The notes under the pieces are model-generated. The model did not search any database, was not told where the DNA came from, and saw nothing but the letters and a program-made list of their open reading frames with translations. This document shows positions 439 through 8,984 of a DNA stretch of 34,957 bases, one piece after another (the stretch's first letter is position 1; every line of letters begins with the position of its first letter). Origin of the DNA: Sulfurimonas sp. (GTDB lineage: Bacteria; Campylobacterota; Campylobacteria; Campylobacterales; Sulfurimonadaceae); contig JALSUU010000082.1 of the NCBI GenBank assembly GCA_027071075.1, positions 1-34,957 of the forward strand. Direction: 5' to 3'. The translations under genes were made by a program, and so were the position numbers.

Positions 439-948
439 CTAGTTTTTCTCCCCAAAAATCAATCTATCAAGTGAAAACTTTCCAGCACCTTGAGTCAAAA
501 GAACGAGTAAAAAGATGATGTAGTATAGTGGCATCTCAAATCCATTTTGTAGCGTCACAATAGTCCCCATAACCTGTGTGCCATTTATCCAAGGGTCTAC
601 TACTTCACTACCCGCTTGCACCATTGCGAAACCATTGACACCATGAACAGTTGCAATCGCTACTAACATAATCACGATAAGTGGTATAGATATAGCACGC
701 GTTAAAAGTCCTAAAGTCAAAAGAACCACTCCACCTACTTCTGTACTTGCTGCCATATACGCATTCAGCGTTGGAAAAGGAATTCCCATAGAACCAAACC
801 ACATCGCAACAGAATCAATATCTGCCCACTTCATCATCGCAGGAGCATAAAAACTATATGCCACTATCAAGCGAACAGCAAGCAAACTCACCGATTTTCC
901 ATACTCACTTAAACGCGTAAACTCTTTATATATATCTTTGACACACAT
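439..948 (-). CDS. DoxX family membrane protein
   Basis: A 169-residue protein of the DoxX/DoxD-like family. It has four hydrophobic segments (about residues 20-40, 60-85, 86-110 and 135-155) and family hallmarks: RLIVAYSFYAPAMMKW near the N-terminus, the amphipathic SVAMWFGSMGIPFP loop, and GGVVLLTLGLLTR before the third helix. It acts in the inner membrane; DoxX proteins are linked to thiol/redox functions, but the reaction is not established for most members. They often accompany DUF692/DUF2063 RiPP loci (for example in Neisseria). Here the gene is about 2.5 kb away from such a locus, with two plus-strand chemotaxis-type genes between, yet its promoter (979-1010) has the same unusual layout. 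GAGGAG at 955-960 is the ribosome-binding site. A decayed gene follows. Confidence 0.85.
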   Translation of the reverse strand: MCVKDIYKEFTRLSEYGKSVSLLAVRLIVAYSFYAPAMMKWADIDSVAMWFGSMGIPFPTLNAYMAASTEVGGVVLLTLGLLTRAISIPLIVIMLVAIATVHGVNGFAMVQAGSEVVDPWINGTQVMGTIVTLQNGFEMPLYYIIFLLVLLTQGAGKFSLDRLIFGEKN

Positions 949-978: not shown

Positions 979-1010
979 ATTGTATCGCTTCTGTGTGTAG
1001 TTTTTGTGTA
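979..1010 (-). promoter_or_regulatory. Promoter with 11-bp direct-repeat operator (DoxX gene)
   Basis: Read on the minus strand: TACACAAAAAC (1010-1000), TACACACAGAA (999-989), 4 nt GCGA, then the -10 box TACAAT (984-979). No good -35 box is seen; the repeats occupy that place. The expected start of transcription near 972 gives a leader of about 24 nt to the ATG at 948. The same 11+11+4+6 layout recurs at 5242-5273 and 8031-8062. Confidence 0.75.
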
Positions 1011-3482: not shown

Positions 3483-4187
3483 CTAAAGCGTAAGTATATT
3501 TTCACCGTGAAAGTGTTCCAAAATAGGTAAAAGGATTTCAAGGAGTTCTTCATTCTCTATCTCATACACCTCAGCAATCTTCTCTATACTCTGCATCGTT
3601 GATAGATTTGGCGTTAAAGAGAGTAAAAATTCCTCTATAAAAGGCGTAATTTCCTCATAAAGGACTTCTTCACTTTTCGCATTATAGTAAAAAAGAATAG
3701 TAAACTCACCACTCTCAAAAGCCTCTGGATTTGAATCAAAATCAGGATGATGCACTGGGTAAGAGAAGTGTCTGATATTTGCTTCTTTTGAAAAAGCATA
3801 ACTCTTTTGTAGTGAAAATGAGCTCTTTGTATGGTCGCTATACTTTTGCATAAACATCTCTATCTCTAAAAACTCAAACTCCAACAAATCAGCTAAATAG
3901 GGCATATCTAAATCATTTTTCTCTATTAAAAAAGCTTTAAACTCTCCACTCACTCTCCAAAGGATAGGTGTCTTTGCACCTACTTTTAAAAACTCATATA
4001 TGAGTCTATCAAAAGTTTCCTCACTCACCATCTTTTTAAAACGAGGATAGGCTTTCTCAAACACTTCTAAAAAGCGGTAGTAGACTAACTCGGTATAGAC
4101 TTCTATCGCCTCACTTGGCATCGATACTTCTTCTTGTTTTGTGATAGTGTTGATAAATCGTTTTTGTATACTCTGTTCTAGTTTCAT
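3483..4187 (-). CDS. bufC: DUF2063 / BufC-HvfC-type partner of an MNIO enzyme
   Basis: A 234-residue protein with the arrangement of the DUF2063 family: an N-terminal helical domain (about 1-95) with MPSEAIEVYTELVYYRFLEVFEKAYPRF and a C-terminal domain in which the chain is read in FYYNAKSEEVLYEEITPF. In bufferin and HvfABC loci this partner binds the DUF692 enzyme and presents the RiPP precursor to it. The gene overlaps the DUF692 gene by the 4-nt ATGA junction (4184-4187), so translation is coupled, and the gene order precursor-DUF692-DUF2063 is the standard one. The stop codon lies about 75 bp from the end of the convergent chemoreceptor. The role is taken from family and context; N-terminal domain confidence is good, the C-terminal part is divergent. 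Confidence 0.85.
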   Translation of the reverse strand: MKLEQSIQKRFINTITKQEEVSMPSEAIEVYTELVYYRFLEVFEKAYPRFKKMVSEETFDRLIYEFLKVGAKTPILWRVSGEFKAFLIEKNDLDMPYLADLLEFEFLEIEMFMQKYSDHTKSSFSLQKSYAFSKEANIRHFSYPVHHPDFDSNPEAFESGEFTILFYYNAKSEEVLYEEITPFIEEFLLSLTPNLSTMQSIEKIAEVYEIENEELLEILLPILEHFHGENILTL

Positions 4188-5011
4188 GAGTAAATCTTCT
4201 GCATATATCTGTACTCTTGCATCATTGATGCATAATCTGGAACATCATTATCTCTCTCTAAAAGCAAGGGTTTATCTACCCCACCCTCTTTGACATACTC
4301 AAGCAAATCCCATACTGCATCTTTTACTTTTTCACCATGTGTATCTATGAACAGATCCTCGCTCACTTCCATGTGTCCAGCTATGTGCATGTAAGCGATA
4401 TTTTCATAATCAATTTTGTCTAAAAAAGCTTTAGGGTCAAACTTATGATTGTGCGAATTTACAAAAACATTGTTCACATCTAAAAGAAGTTTTGCACCAC
4501 TTCTTTTTATAACCTCATTAATAAAGTCGGTCTCTTCCATCTCAGCATAAGGAACATAATAGTACGAAGCATTCTCTAAAGCAATACTTCGTCCAAGTAT
4601 ATTTTGCACTGCATCAACTCTCTCACAAATATAGTTAACCATATTTTCAGTCATAGGGAGTGGGAGTAACTCATACATCTGTTTGTTATCAAGGGTGCAA
4701 AAAGAGAGGTGTTCGGAGTAATACTCTATCTCATACTCATCTAAAAAACTTTTTAAATCGGTGAGAAATTTTTTATCCAAAGGAGTATTTGAACCAATTG
4801 AAAGGGATAAGCCATGTGCGACTATCTCAAAATCACTCACAATTCGTTCAAATGTTTTTCGGTGTTTAGCATGCATGTACATCCAGTTTTCAGGAGTAAT
4901 CTCAAACCAAGATGGCTTGAAATCATTTGCATACACATCATGCATAAACTCTGTTCTTAAACCTAGACCACAAGAGTATGGAGTCTTTAAAAGCAGAAAA
5001 TTTTGAGACAT
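4184..5011 (-). CDS. bufB: DUF692 multinuclear non-heme iron oxidase (BufB/HvfB/MbnB family)
   Basis: A 275-residue TIM-barrel enzyme that would convert Cys residues of the neighbouring precursor into oxidised heterocycles (thiooxazole or oxazolone/thioamide in studied relatives). Family metal-site residues are visible in order: H66 in VAHGLSLSIG, E100-H101 in YYSEHLSF, E146-N147 in ALENASYY, D178 with N180/N181 in LLLDVNNVFVN, H187/H189, H209 and H213 in YMHIAGH, D223 and H225 in IDTHGE, E252 in LLLERD. I take the start at ATG 5011: the protein then opens MSQNFLLLKTPYSCGLGLR, as in the family, 4 nt after the precursor stop and preceded by AGTAGAGAT. An in-frame extension up to 5146 is possible but would run through the precursor gene. 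Cytoplasmic. Confidence 0.92.
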   Translation of the reverse strand: MSQNFLLLKTPYSCGLGLRTEFMHDVYANDFKPSWFEITPENWMYMHAKHRKTFERIVSDFEIVAHGLSLSIGSNTPLDKKFLTDLKSFLDEYEIEYYSEHLSFCTLDNKQMYELLPLPMTENMVNYICERVDAVQNILGRSIALENASYYYVPYAEMEETDFINEVIKRSGAKLLLDVNNVFVNSHNHKFDPKAFLDKIDYENIAYMHIAGHMEVSEDLFIDTHGEKVKDAVWDLLEYVKEGGVDKPLLLERDNDVPDYASMMQEYRYMQKIYS

Positions 5012-5015
5012 ATCT

Positions 5016-5210
5016 CTACTTGCTACCGCACTTAGTTTCAGCTTTATCGCCACCACATTTTGAAGTAGGTGCTTTTTTATCGCTACCACATTTACCAGAA
5101 GCACCACACTTACTACCACCACACATACCCATTGAAGCACAACCACTTGCCATCGTCATAACACCAAGAACTGATGCACCTACTACTAACTTTTTAATAT
5201 CTTTTCTCAT
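5016..5210 (-). CDS. bufA: Cys-rich RiPP precursor with KCG motifs (bufferin/HvfA type)
   Basis: A 64-residue secreted peptide. Residues 1-23 form a signal peptide (MRKDIKK then a hydrophobic stretch) ending at MASGC, so Cys24 could be lipidated. The mature part is Cys, Gly and Lys-rich with KCG at C35, C41, C52 and C61 plus MCGG at C30, spaced by polar linkers. This matches precursors of DUF692 enzymes: export signal plus repeated (E/A/S)GKCG-like cores, as in HvfA, more than the DUF2282 type of bufferin. The DUF692 gene begins 4 nt after its stop. AAAGGAT provides the ribosome-binding site. The likely product is a modified periplasmic or lipid-anchored metal-binding peptide, most probably for copper; the metal is inference. 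Without modification it could still serve as a simple metallothionein-like protein. Confidence 0.85.
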   Translation of the reverse strand: MRKDIKKLVVGASVLGVMTMASGCASMGMCGGSKCGASGKCGSDKKAPTSKCGGDKAETKCGSK

Positions 5211-5241: not shown

Positions 5242-5273
5242 ATTGTAGCTACTGAGTGTGCAAAGTTTGTGTA
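5242..5273 (-). promoter_or_regulatory. Promoter with 11-bp direct-repeat operator (bufABC)
   Basis: Minus strand: TACACAAACTT (5273-5263), TGCACACTCAG (5262-5252), 4 nt TAGC, -10 box TACAAT (5247-5242), then about 31 nt to the ATG at 5210. The second repeat differs from the consensus at one half-site base (TGCACA for TACACA). Spacing equals that at 979-1010 and 8031-8062. Confidence 0.75.
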
Positions 5274-7705: not shown

Positions 7706-8002
7706 CTATTTTCCCCCACATTTCCCTGCGCCACATTTCATCTTTGCTGGAGCTTTTTTCTCTCCACCACATTTTTTTACTATTTTTTCTGCACCACCGC
7801 ATTTACCAGCACCACACTTTTTCGCTACTTTTTCTGCACCGCCACATTTACCAGCACCACACTTCATCTTCTTCTCAGATTTTTCAGAAGCACCACCACA
7901 TTTACCTGCACCACACTTGCTTGATGCACTTAAACTAACTGCACCTAGACCTGTAAAAAGAGCTGCTCCAAGAAGTAAAGCTGTAAGATTTAACTTTGAC
8001 AT
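7706..8002 (-). CDS. Orphan Cys-repeat precursor with KCGAGKCGG modules (HvfA-like)
   Basis: A 98-residue secreted protein. Residues 1-27 are a signal peptide (MSKLNLTALLLGAALFTGLG, cleavage probably after SLSAS). The rest is Cys-Gly-Lys-Ala: four copies of KCGAGKCGG (residues 29-37, 47-55, 62-70, 89-97) and one lone KCGG (77-80), nine Cys in all, joined by Lys/Glu-rich linkers. The motif is that of DUF692-dependent precursors of the HvfA type, and resembles the precursor at 5016-5210. No DUF692 or DUF2063 gene adjoins it; the pair at 3483-5011 could act in trans. Its promoter has the same direct-repeat layout as that locus. RBS AAAGGA. The alternative is an unmodified periplasmic metallothionein-like metal sponge. 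Confidence 0.82.
   Translation of the reverse strand: MSKLNLTALLLGAALFTGLGAVSLSASSKCGAGKCGGASEKSEKKMKCGAGKCGGAEKVAKKCGAGKCGGAEKIVKKCGGEKKAPAKMKCGAGKCGGK
7712..7918 (-). repeat. Four coding repeats for KCGAGKCGG
   Basis: Repeat units lie at 7918-7892, 7864-7838, 7819-7793 and 7738-7712, separated by 18 to 54 bp of Lys/Glu/Ala coding sequence. The DNA of the units is nearly the same (complement of the recurring CCACCACATTTACC and GCACCACACTT stretches), so copy number could change by slippage or recombination. Confidence 0.8.
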
Positions 8003-8030: not shown

Positions 8031-8062
8031 ATTATACATTAGTTTTGTGTAGAGTTTGTGTA
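8031..8062 (-). promoter_or_regulatory. Promoter with 11-bp direct-repeat operator (orphan precursor)
   Basis: Minus strand: TACACAAACTC (8062-8052), TACACAAAACT (8051-8041), 4 nt AATG, -10 box TATAAT (8036-8031), then 28 nt to the ATG at 8002. This is the cleanest of the three copies: the first eight bases, TACACAAA, are identical in both repeats. Confidence 0.8.
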
Positions 8063-8984
8063 CAGATGCTATAATGTTGAAAAATTATCCAAAGGTGTTC
8101 CCATTATTTTAAGTAAAAAATCTCTTTTAGAGCAGTTTCAATCATTTCACAAAGAGTTCAATCCAAAAACTATGGAAGATGCAGTAGAGAAGTTTGCTAT
8201 CTTTGGTGGTGTTGGATGGGGAAACCTAGATACATCTAAAGAGAGTATGCAACTCATAGAAGAGCTTATTCTTCCTGATTTTCGTTTTATTCGCAATGAT
8301 GTAACAGAACTTACAACAGGACTTCCTCTGCATCATGCTATTCTCACAGCTATTGCACTTGGGGATGGACGAACACATACTGCATACAGACGGGCAAATG
8401 TTTCTAAAGAGGTTGGCGATAAAGCTATTGAGGAGTTATGTGAGAGTGGGATTATACGCCTTGAGAAATCAAAAGCGACTTTTACATCTTGGAAAGAGAA
8501 TGAGAGTGTATCAAACAAACTTTACTTTACTTCACCCTTTTTACGCTTTTGGTTTGCTTTTATATCGCCTATATTTAAAGGTATTCGAGATGGGGATTAT
8601 AAAGAAATTCGTGAGCGATTTGCAAATAGAAAGAGTGAATTTTTACAACTTACCTTTGTAGAGTTAGCCCATGAACTTATCAAAATGAACTTTGTTGAAG
8701 ACCCTATTGTAGAGATAGGTGAGTACTGGGACAACAAGATTGAACTTGATATTTTTGCTACTACGGAGTCAGGGGAGGTAGTTGTTGGTATTTGTAAATA
8801 TACTACGACTAAAGTGAAAAAAAGTGAACTCACAAAACTTCAAGAGTTATGCAAAGAAGCAAAAATAGAAGCCGATATTTTTGTCATCGTGTCAAAGTCA
8901 GGTTTCTCAAAAGAACTCAAAAACTTAAAGTCTAAAGAAGTAAGATTCATCACGCTTAAGAATTTTCAAAAATTGGTCGCATAA
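8058..8984 (+). CDS. DUF234-type protein (start uncertain)
   Basis: The open frame gives 308 residues from GTG 8058. The protein resembles the C-terminal DUF234 half of archaeal-type ATPases, seen alone in Campylobacterota: a winged-helix region (HTAYRRANVSKEVGDKAIEELCESGIIRLEKS, broken here as HTAYRRANVSKEVGDK and EELCESGIIR), then FTSPFLRFWFAFISP and a nuclease-like part with WDNKIELDIFATTESGEVVVG. No P-loop ATPase domain is present. The true start is probably later than 8058, because a strong -10 lies at 8070-8075: the first good ATG is 8172, but similarity-like sequence (SLLEQFQSFHKEF) begins before it, so a non-standard ATT at 8103, behind AAAGGTG, is possible. Its stop abuts the next ATG (8985). 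Function unknown. Confidence 0.65.
   Translation: MYRCYNVEKLSKGVPIILSKKSLLEQFQSFHKEFNPKTMEDAVEKFAIFGGVGWGNLDTSKESMQLIEELILPDFRFIRNDVTELTTGLPLHHAILTAIALGDGRTHTAYRRANVSKEVGDKAIEELCESGIIRLEKSKATFTSWKENESVSNKLYFTSPFLRFWFAFISPIFKGIRDGDYKEIRERFANRKSEFLQLTFVELAHELIKMNFVEDPIVEIGEYWDNKIELDIFATTESGEVVVGICKYTTTKVKKSELTKLQELCKEAKIEADIFVIVSKSGFSKELKNLKSKEVRFITLKNFQKLVA
8067..8075 (+). promoter_or_regulatory. Extended -10 promoter for the DUF234-type gene
   Basis: TGCTATAAT at 8067-8075 is a full extended -10. The -35 region would fall in the repeat operator at 8041-8062, so a regulator that activates the divergent precursor gene may affect this promoter. Transcription would begin near 8082, downstream of the GTG at 8058. 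Confidence 0.6.

Follow-up and report, generated by a model that had tools for sequence, protein, structure and literature searches.

The window (the whole stretch of DNA analysed here, 34,957 nucleotides from a Sulfurimonas genome) carries a gene for an exported cysteine-rich peptide, KCG98, a separate operon, hvfABC, that encodes an MNIO (DUF692) enzyme, its partner protein and a short precursor, and the DoxX-family gene hvfX (Table 1). The original prediction described KCG98 as an orphan precursor, lying without enzymes of its own under an operator matching that of the DUF692 operon, and probably modified in trans by the enzyme pair of that operon.

Table 1. Genes and direct-repeat boxes at the KCG98 locus
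Feature	Positions	Strand	Description
hvfX	439-948	-	DoxX-family membrane protein; NF050144 132.5 bits (cut-off 80)
Direct-repeat box TACACAAAAACTACACA	994-1010	-	before hvfX
hvfC	3483-4187	-	DUF2063/NGO1945_C partner protein; PF09836 43 bits
hvfB	4184-5011	-	MNIO (DUF692) enzyme; PF05114 317 bits (gathering score 25)
Short HvfA	5016-5210	-	64 aa, 6 Cys, one of them in a likely lipobox ASGC; own precursor of the MNIO operon
Direct-repeat box TACACAAACTTTGCACA	5257-5273	-	before hvfABC
KCG98	7706-8002	-	98-aa exported HvfA-like peptide, 9 Cys, four KCGAGKCGG units and one half unit
Direct-repeat box TACACAAACTCTACACA	8046-8062	-	begins 60 bp before the start codon of KCG98
DUF234 protein	8058-8984	+	syntenic divergent neighbour of KCG peptides, used as landmark

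The KCG98 peptide and the hvfABC operon

The KCGAGKCGG units of KCG98 start at residues 29, 47, 62 and 89, with the half unit KCGGE at residue 77, and their four KCGAGKCG motifs are the only ones found in the six reading frames of the whole window. Since the units differ in their codons, they do not stem from a fresh DNA duplication, and a recent tandem duplication was ruled out as the source of the repeats. By inspection, the N-terminus resembles a Sec signal peptide. KCG98 matches the NCBIfam model NF050137 (HvfA family KCGExKCG domain) with 36.4 bits against a cut-off of 19.5; its score for the HvfA equivalog NF050188 is 9.3 bits, below the cut-off of 95, and a Pfam search retrieved no DUF2282 (Buf1) domain. 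The open reading frame, the motif positions and the NF050137 match all agree with the predicted secreted protein of 98 residues with nine cysteines in KCGAGKCGG units and, judged by its sequence, KCG98 is an HvfA-type peptide. Structure prediction for KCG98, run with 12 orthologs, yielded a single signal helix and otherwise disorder (pLDDT 41, pTM 0.17); the beta-helix proposed for regular EGKCG repeats is not supported by the KCG98 model, which is too uncertain to count against it.

As had been predicted, KCG98 has no adjacent enzymes: it forms a separate unit, 2.5 kb away from the MNIO and DUF2063 genes. The proteins of the hvfABC operon score below the cut-offs of the more specific models, narrowly so for the MNIO (334 bits for the HvfB equivalog PRK05409, cut-off 360) and more clearly for HvfC (91 bits for NF050145, cut-off 142). 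The window's genome (2.4 Mb, 285 contigs, 94.8% complete) contains one MNIO gene, and hence no second DUF692 operon was found in it. The short precursor looks lipid-anchored, as expected, given its likely lipobox. Together with HvfB (window positions 4184-5210) it is 98% identical to its counterpart in another genome, G186 (compared at locus L113), as compared to 71-93% for most of the flanking proteins.

KCG motifs were also seen in two other types of protein. A second KCG family comprises lipoproteins of 115-141 aa with the pattern MKCGAGKCGANMFDG...KKKKNIL.QMR..D and three KCG pairs, which score 39 bits for NF050137 (loci L105:12832-13200, L106:3029, L113:95-472 and L003), and genome G227 encodes a c-type cytochrome-like protein (CASCH) with a C-terminal KCGAGKCG tail (L012:994-1587).

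KCG peptides and HvfX in genomes with and without MNIO

Across 228 genomes of the family Sulfurimonadaceae, the peptide profile A1 had matches in 142, as compared to 16 genomes with MNIO (PF05114) and 14 with HvfC (PF09836); some of the A1 matches are related KCG proteins rather than strict orthologs, the strongest ones sharing the same signal peptide and neighbours. When only good genomes were considered (completeness of 90% or more, contamination of 5% or less), the peptide was found in 92, MNIO in 12 and HvfC in 11 of 139, so that at least 80 good genomes carry the peptide and no MNIO. The genomes compared are mostly MAGs; ten single-contig Sulfurimonas genomes (G086, G088, G093, G095, G098, G099, G103, G199, G200 and G218) contain the peptide and lack both MNIO and HvfC. 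Among 397 sampled genomes from across the phylum, by our own count, MNIO was present in 19 of the 32 KCG-positive genomes outside the family and in 2 of the 20 inside it, indicating that peptide and MNIO are uncoupled most strongly in this family. A survey in the literature counted 67/2583 assembled genomes with Buf_EGKCG precursors but no MNIO, and did not decide between unlinked precursors being modified elsewhere and staying unmodified (PMC12452194, Table 3). Our literature search found no paper tying Sulfurimonas to MNIO, DUF692 or DoxX peptides.

Where MNIO is missing, the KCG and DUF234 genes are divergently oriented, hvfX lies after the KCG gene or faces it, and hvfX is often followed by genes for a Glu_synthase-domain (PF01645) protein, a Gluconate_2-dh3 protein and a GMC oxidoreductase, giving the order DUF234 - KCG - HvfX - (Glu_synthase domain) - Gluconate_2-dh3 - GMC. 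Among 80 HvfX loci of named genomes (Sulfurimonas, Sulfurovum, Hydrogenimonas and others), 55 are flanked by a KCG-rich protein, on a loose criterion under which one of the 55 is a larger protein, and 3 are flanked by MNIO. The standing partner of KCG98 is HvfX, not DUF692. Since HvfX pairs with KCG peptides without MNIO in Sulfurimonas, its role is not confined to MNIO maturation; this near-constant protein must have an MNIO-independent role.

The MNIO-less genome G101 (two contigs, 100% complete) carries genes for HvfX, HD-GYP, MBL, KCG, DUF234 and hydrolase proteins in the order seen in the window (locus L104), the proteins being 55-70% identical. Missing from this locus are the methyl-accepting chemotaxis protein and hvfABC, which in the window separate hvfX from the HD-GYP gene. 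In the MNIO tree, the window's enzyme groups with three close relatives and with the enzyme of G227, a genome of another genus (100/100), apart from the other MNIOs of the family, and in the HvfX tree the window's protein lies among those of MNIO-less Sulfurimonas. The empty site in G101 and the two trees fit an insertion of hvfABC into an existing locus, and these comparisons suggest that hvfABC most likely joined the KCG/HvfX regulon later; alternatively, an ancestral MNIO may have been lost many times.

Two MNIO-less genomes carry, immediately upstream of hvfX, a gene for a Met-rich, Cys-poor relative of the short HvfA lipoprotein (L097:2236-2559 and L102:1460-1732). In G165 and G123, both MNIO-less, the short-HvfA relatives retain the leader and lipobox (MKRDIKKL..LGASVVGV..TSGC) and have 17-18 Met, with a single C-terminal Cys besides that of the lipobox, as compared to 4-6 Cys in the five versions from MNIO-positive genomes. 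The long KCG peptide that shares these loci in G165 and G123 has kept 8 Cys (eight CG units). The cysteines of the short protein thus seem to track MNIO whereas those of the long peptide do not, a comparison that is suggestive rather than proof because the two MNIO-less genomes are neither independent of each other nor closed (their completeness values are 84% and 96%, their contamination 5-8%).

The direct-repeat box and its regulon

An 11-bp direct-repeat box is common to KCG98, the hvfABC operon and hvfX. The sequence TACACAAACTNTRCACA occurs with zero mismatches before both hvfABC and KCG98, in line with the matching operator that had been proposed for the two, and with 2 mismatches before hvfX, a third copy that had not been mentioned. 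Overall, the window contains 7 box matches where 1.1 are expected. In its TACACANNNNYTRCACA form the box has five exact matches in the window's genome, namely at KCG98, hvfABC, hvfX, the paired genes for Gluconate_2-dh3 and GMC oxidoreductase on contig C46 (L049:3170-5651), and one site (C5:1336) near a gene that by inspection encodes a receiver-domain protein and for which we found no link to the regulon. The C46 pair, for which no link to metallophores is known, apparently belongs to the regulon. From a further box, on contig C181, no related gene was reached.

Of the 17 exact box matches in the window's genome and five MNIO-less genomes, 13 lie before a KCG, HvfX, hvfABC or Gluconate_2-dh3 operon by our own tally; within the five MNIO-less genomes, most exact boxes precede a KCG gene, hvfX or a Gluconate_2-dh3 operon. 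When up to 1 mismatch was allowed, a box within the preceding 130 bases was found in the MNIO-less loci for 23 of 38 KCG genes and for 37 of 66 hvfX genes, as compared to 28 of 848 other ORFs, which themselves include some regulon members (Fisher P about 1e-21 and 3e-30, respectively, values that overstate independence since the loci are related to each other). The start of the box clusters 55-64 bases ahead of the start codon.

Three MNIO-less genomes have the same two-component system next to their KCG gene (L107:6084-7878, L111:1-1362 and L116:2160-3993), and a 67%-identical version of its regulator is encoded in the window's genome on another contig, C119. This system is a candidate reader of the box; since no box was established at the two-component genes themselves, its part as the regulator stays a guess.

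Many Sulfurimonas genomes without DUF692 hold relatives with the same neighbours and box, so that the peptide does not depend on DUF692. The view of KCG98 as an orphan to be explained by the DUF692 operon is not supported, given that orthologs with this neighbourhood and box occur in many genomes without MNIO and HvfC, ten of them closed. The membership of KCG98 and hvfABC in one regulon stood; the dependence on DUF692 did not. The most fitting description of KCG98 is that of an HvfA-like peptide which is independent of MNIO and belongs to a KCG-HvfX regulon.

Maturation and function of the KCG peptides

We propose, with a probability of roughly 0.62, that KCG98 is an HvfA-like, cysteine-rich periplasmic metal-buffering peptide that belongs to an MNIO-independent KCG-HvfX module, to which hvfABC was added later. 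The module would consist of the KCG peptide and HvfX, usually with the Gluconate_2-dh3 and GMC oxidoreductase genes, under the one direct-repeat box, which is probably read by an activator of the response-regulator type. The peptide would most likely buffer copper or another soft metal through free cysteine thiols, with HvfX as its presumed membrane partner. In this lineage hvfABC, with its own short lipoprotein-type precursor and the same box, would most likely have been added to the existing locus, between hvfX and KCG98. The peptide is conserved, as are its gene neighbourhood and box, and MNIO and HvfC are absent from many of the genomes that carry it; the buffering function, in turn, is inferred by analogy with the oxazolin and bufferin relatives, the KCG lipoproteins adjacent to ATPases and the Met-rich variant.

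It is possible, although we would put it at somewhat under even odds, that both the short HvfA and KCG98 are substrates of HvfBC in trans, their KCG cysteines being converted to 5-thiooxazoles before Sec export. Such modification would be compatible with an MNIO-independent module and is not needed to explain the gene, making it a secondary possibility. The common box would bring KCG98 and the products of hvfABC into the cell together, and the genome offers a single MNIO. In addition, the leader motif LxxGAxL and the KCGAGKCG core of KCG98 recur in peptides whose genes directly adjoin those for MNIO in other genera of the family, a resemblance that makes trans modification plausible here. For FonBC, two repeats were needed, Ala in place of Glu was tolerated in single sites and AKCGA repeats were modified once, so that the KCG98 core is close to substrates accepted by related enzymes (PMC13097082); the signal peptide of HvfA, moreover, doubles as a leader that is read by the RRE partner (PMC13419390). 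However, the same leader and core persist in genomes without MNIO and are thus not evidence of MNIO recognition. The window's MNIO also sits on a long branch, away from the enzymes found beside KCGAGKCG peptides, and the leader of the operon's short precursor is only 35% identical overall to KCG98.

The signal peptide of the KCG peptides bears on a further possibility. When 25 MNIO-less loci were compared, mean identity was 80% over the first 26 residues and 64% over the rest, a figure lowered by the poor alignment of the repeats; in 268 of 300 pairs, conservation of the signal exceeds that of the mature part. The N-termini of control proteins (the secreted MBL protein, HvfX and Gluconate_2-dh3), taken from overlapping sets of loci, are 54-63% identical. 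Fourfold sites are only modestly more alike in the signal (58 vs 47%), which places the constraint mainly at the protein level, and the Sec-like N-terminus is equally conserved without MNIO. By analogy, the conserved signal of the MNIO-less peptides looks like a leader recognised by some enzyme. The KCG peptides of all Sulfurimonas might then be modified by a non-MNIO enzyme with the signal peptide as leader, perhaps one from the same regulon, such as the GMC oxidoreductase/Gluconate_2-dh3 pair, the Glu_synthase-domain protein or HvfX. We regard this as unlikely: although the signal is conserved beyond the mature part and the control N-termini, and redox genes lie at the same locus under the same box, the module contains no enzyme of known peptide-modifying activity, only HvfX is near-constant, and the identity of the repetitive mature part is depressed by its poor alignment. 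Less likely again is the fuller scenario, in which maturation by a non-MNIO enzyme of the regulon, guided by the signal, is the rule in Sulfurimonas and the MNIO operon represents a second, later route.

Sulfurimonas are sulfur oxidisers, and redox genes belong to the regulon; instead of being a metallophore, the KCG peptide might therefore, with HvfX, carry thiols or persulfides in the sulfur or redox chemistry of the periplasm, a reading to which we assign a low probability. DoxX proteins have indeed been tied to sulfur and oxidative stress (PMC12452194), but the HvfA/oxazolin relatives bind copper (PMC13097082, PMC13419390), and the replacement of Cys by Met in the short protein would suit Cu(I) binding. 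The lipoprotein relative of the second KCG family, moreover, adjoins a heavy-metal P-type ATPase in G095 and G103; in G086, a relative of G103, the P-type ATPase beside the KCG gene is of another, by inspection cation-transporting, kind, which weakens this link. That the KCG peptides of MNIO-less genomes are functionless relics of lost MNIO systems, as the MNIO genes in several genera of the family might suggest, is highly improbable, and we rejected it because these peptides are intact, box-controlled and conserved in ten closed genomes with their cysteines kept.

In published surveys the uncoupling of precursor and MNIO is rare, whereas here a whole genus keeps the peptide, HvfX and a dedicated box, mostly without MNIO and HvfC. 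MNIO-less Sulfurimonas isolates, among them S. indica NW8N with the peptide at its locus L183, therefore offer a setting for studying the action of the bare peptide and of HvfX, and the NCBIfam names given to KCG proteins ("oxazolone/thioamide-modified RiPP metallophore") exceed what is known.

Among known systems, KCG98 resembles the HvfA/oxazolin of Haemophilus influenzae (Buf_EGKCG class; captophorins such as fontiphorin and gonophorin) in its Sec signal peptide followed by KCG repeats, its NF050137 domain and the nearby HvfX homolog; it differs in having AGKCG rather than EGKCG, in the irregular spacing of its repeats and in the absence of MNIO and HvfC from its transcription unit and from most ortholog-bearing genomes. 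With the bufferins Buf1 (DUF2282) and Buf2, which the literature ties to MNIO, DUF2063, DoxX and copper stress, and for which stand-alone precursor genes have been described, it shares the character of an exported Cys peptide, but it has no Pfam DUF2282 match and a different Cys pattern. The window's HvfX, in turn, resembles the HvfX/DoxX proteins of MNIO clusters in scoring above the NF050144 cut-off; unlike them, the HvfX of Sulfurimonas pairs with KCG peptides without MNIO, and the MNIO-less genomes of this genus thus separate HvfX from MNIO chemistry.
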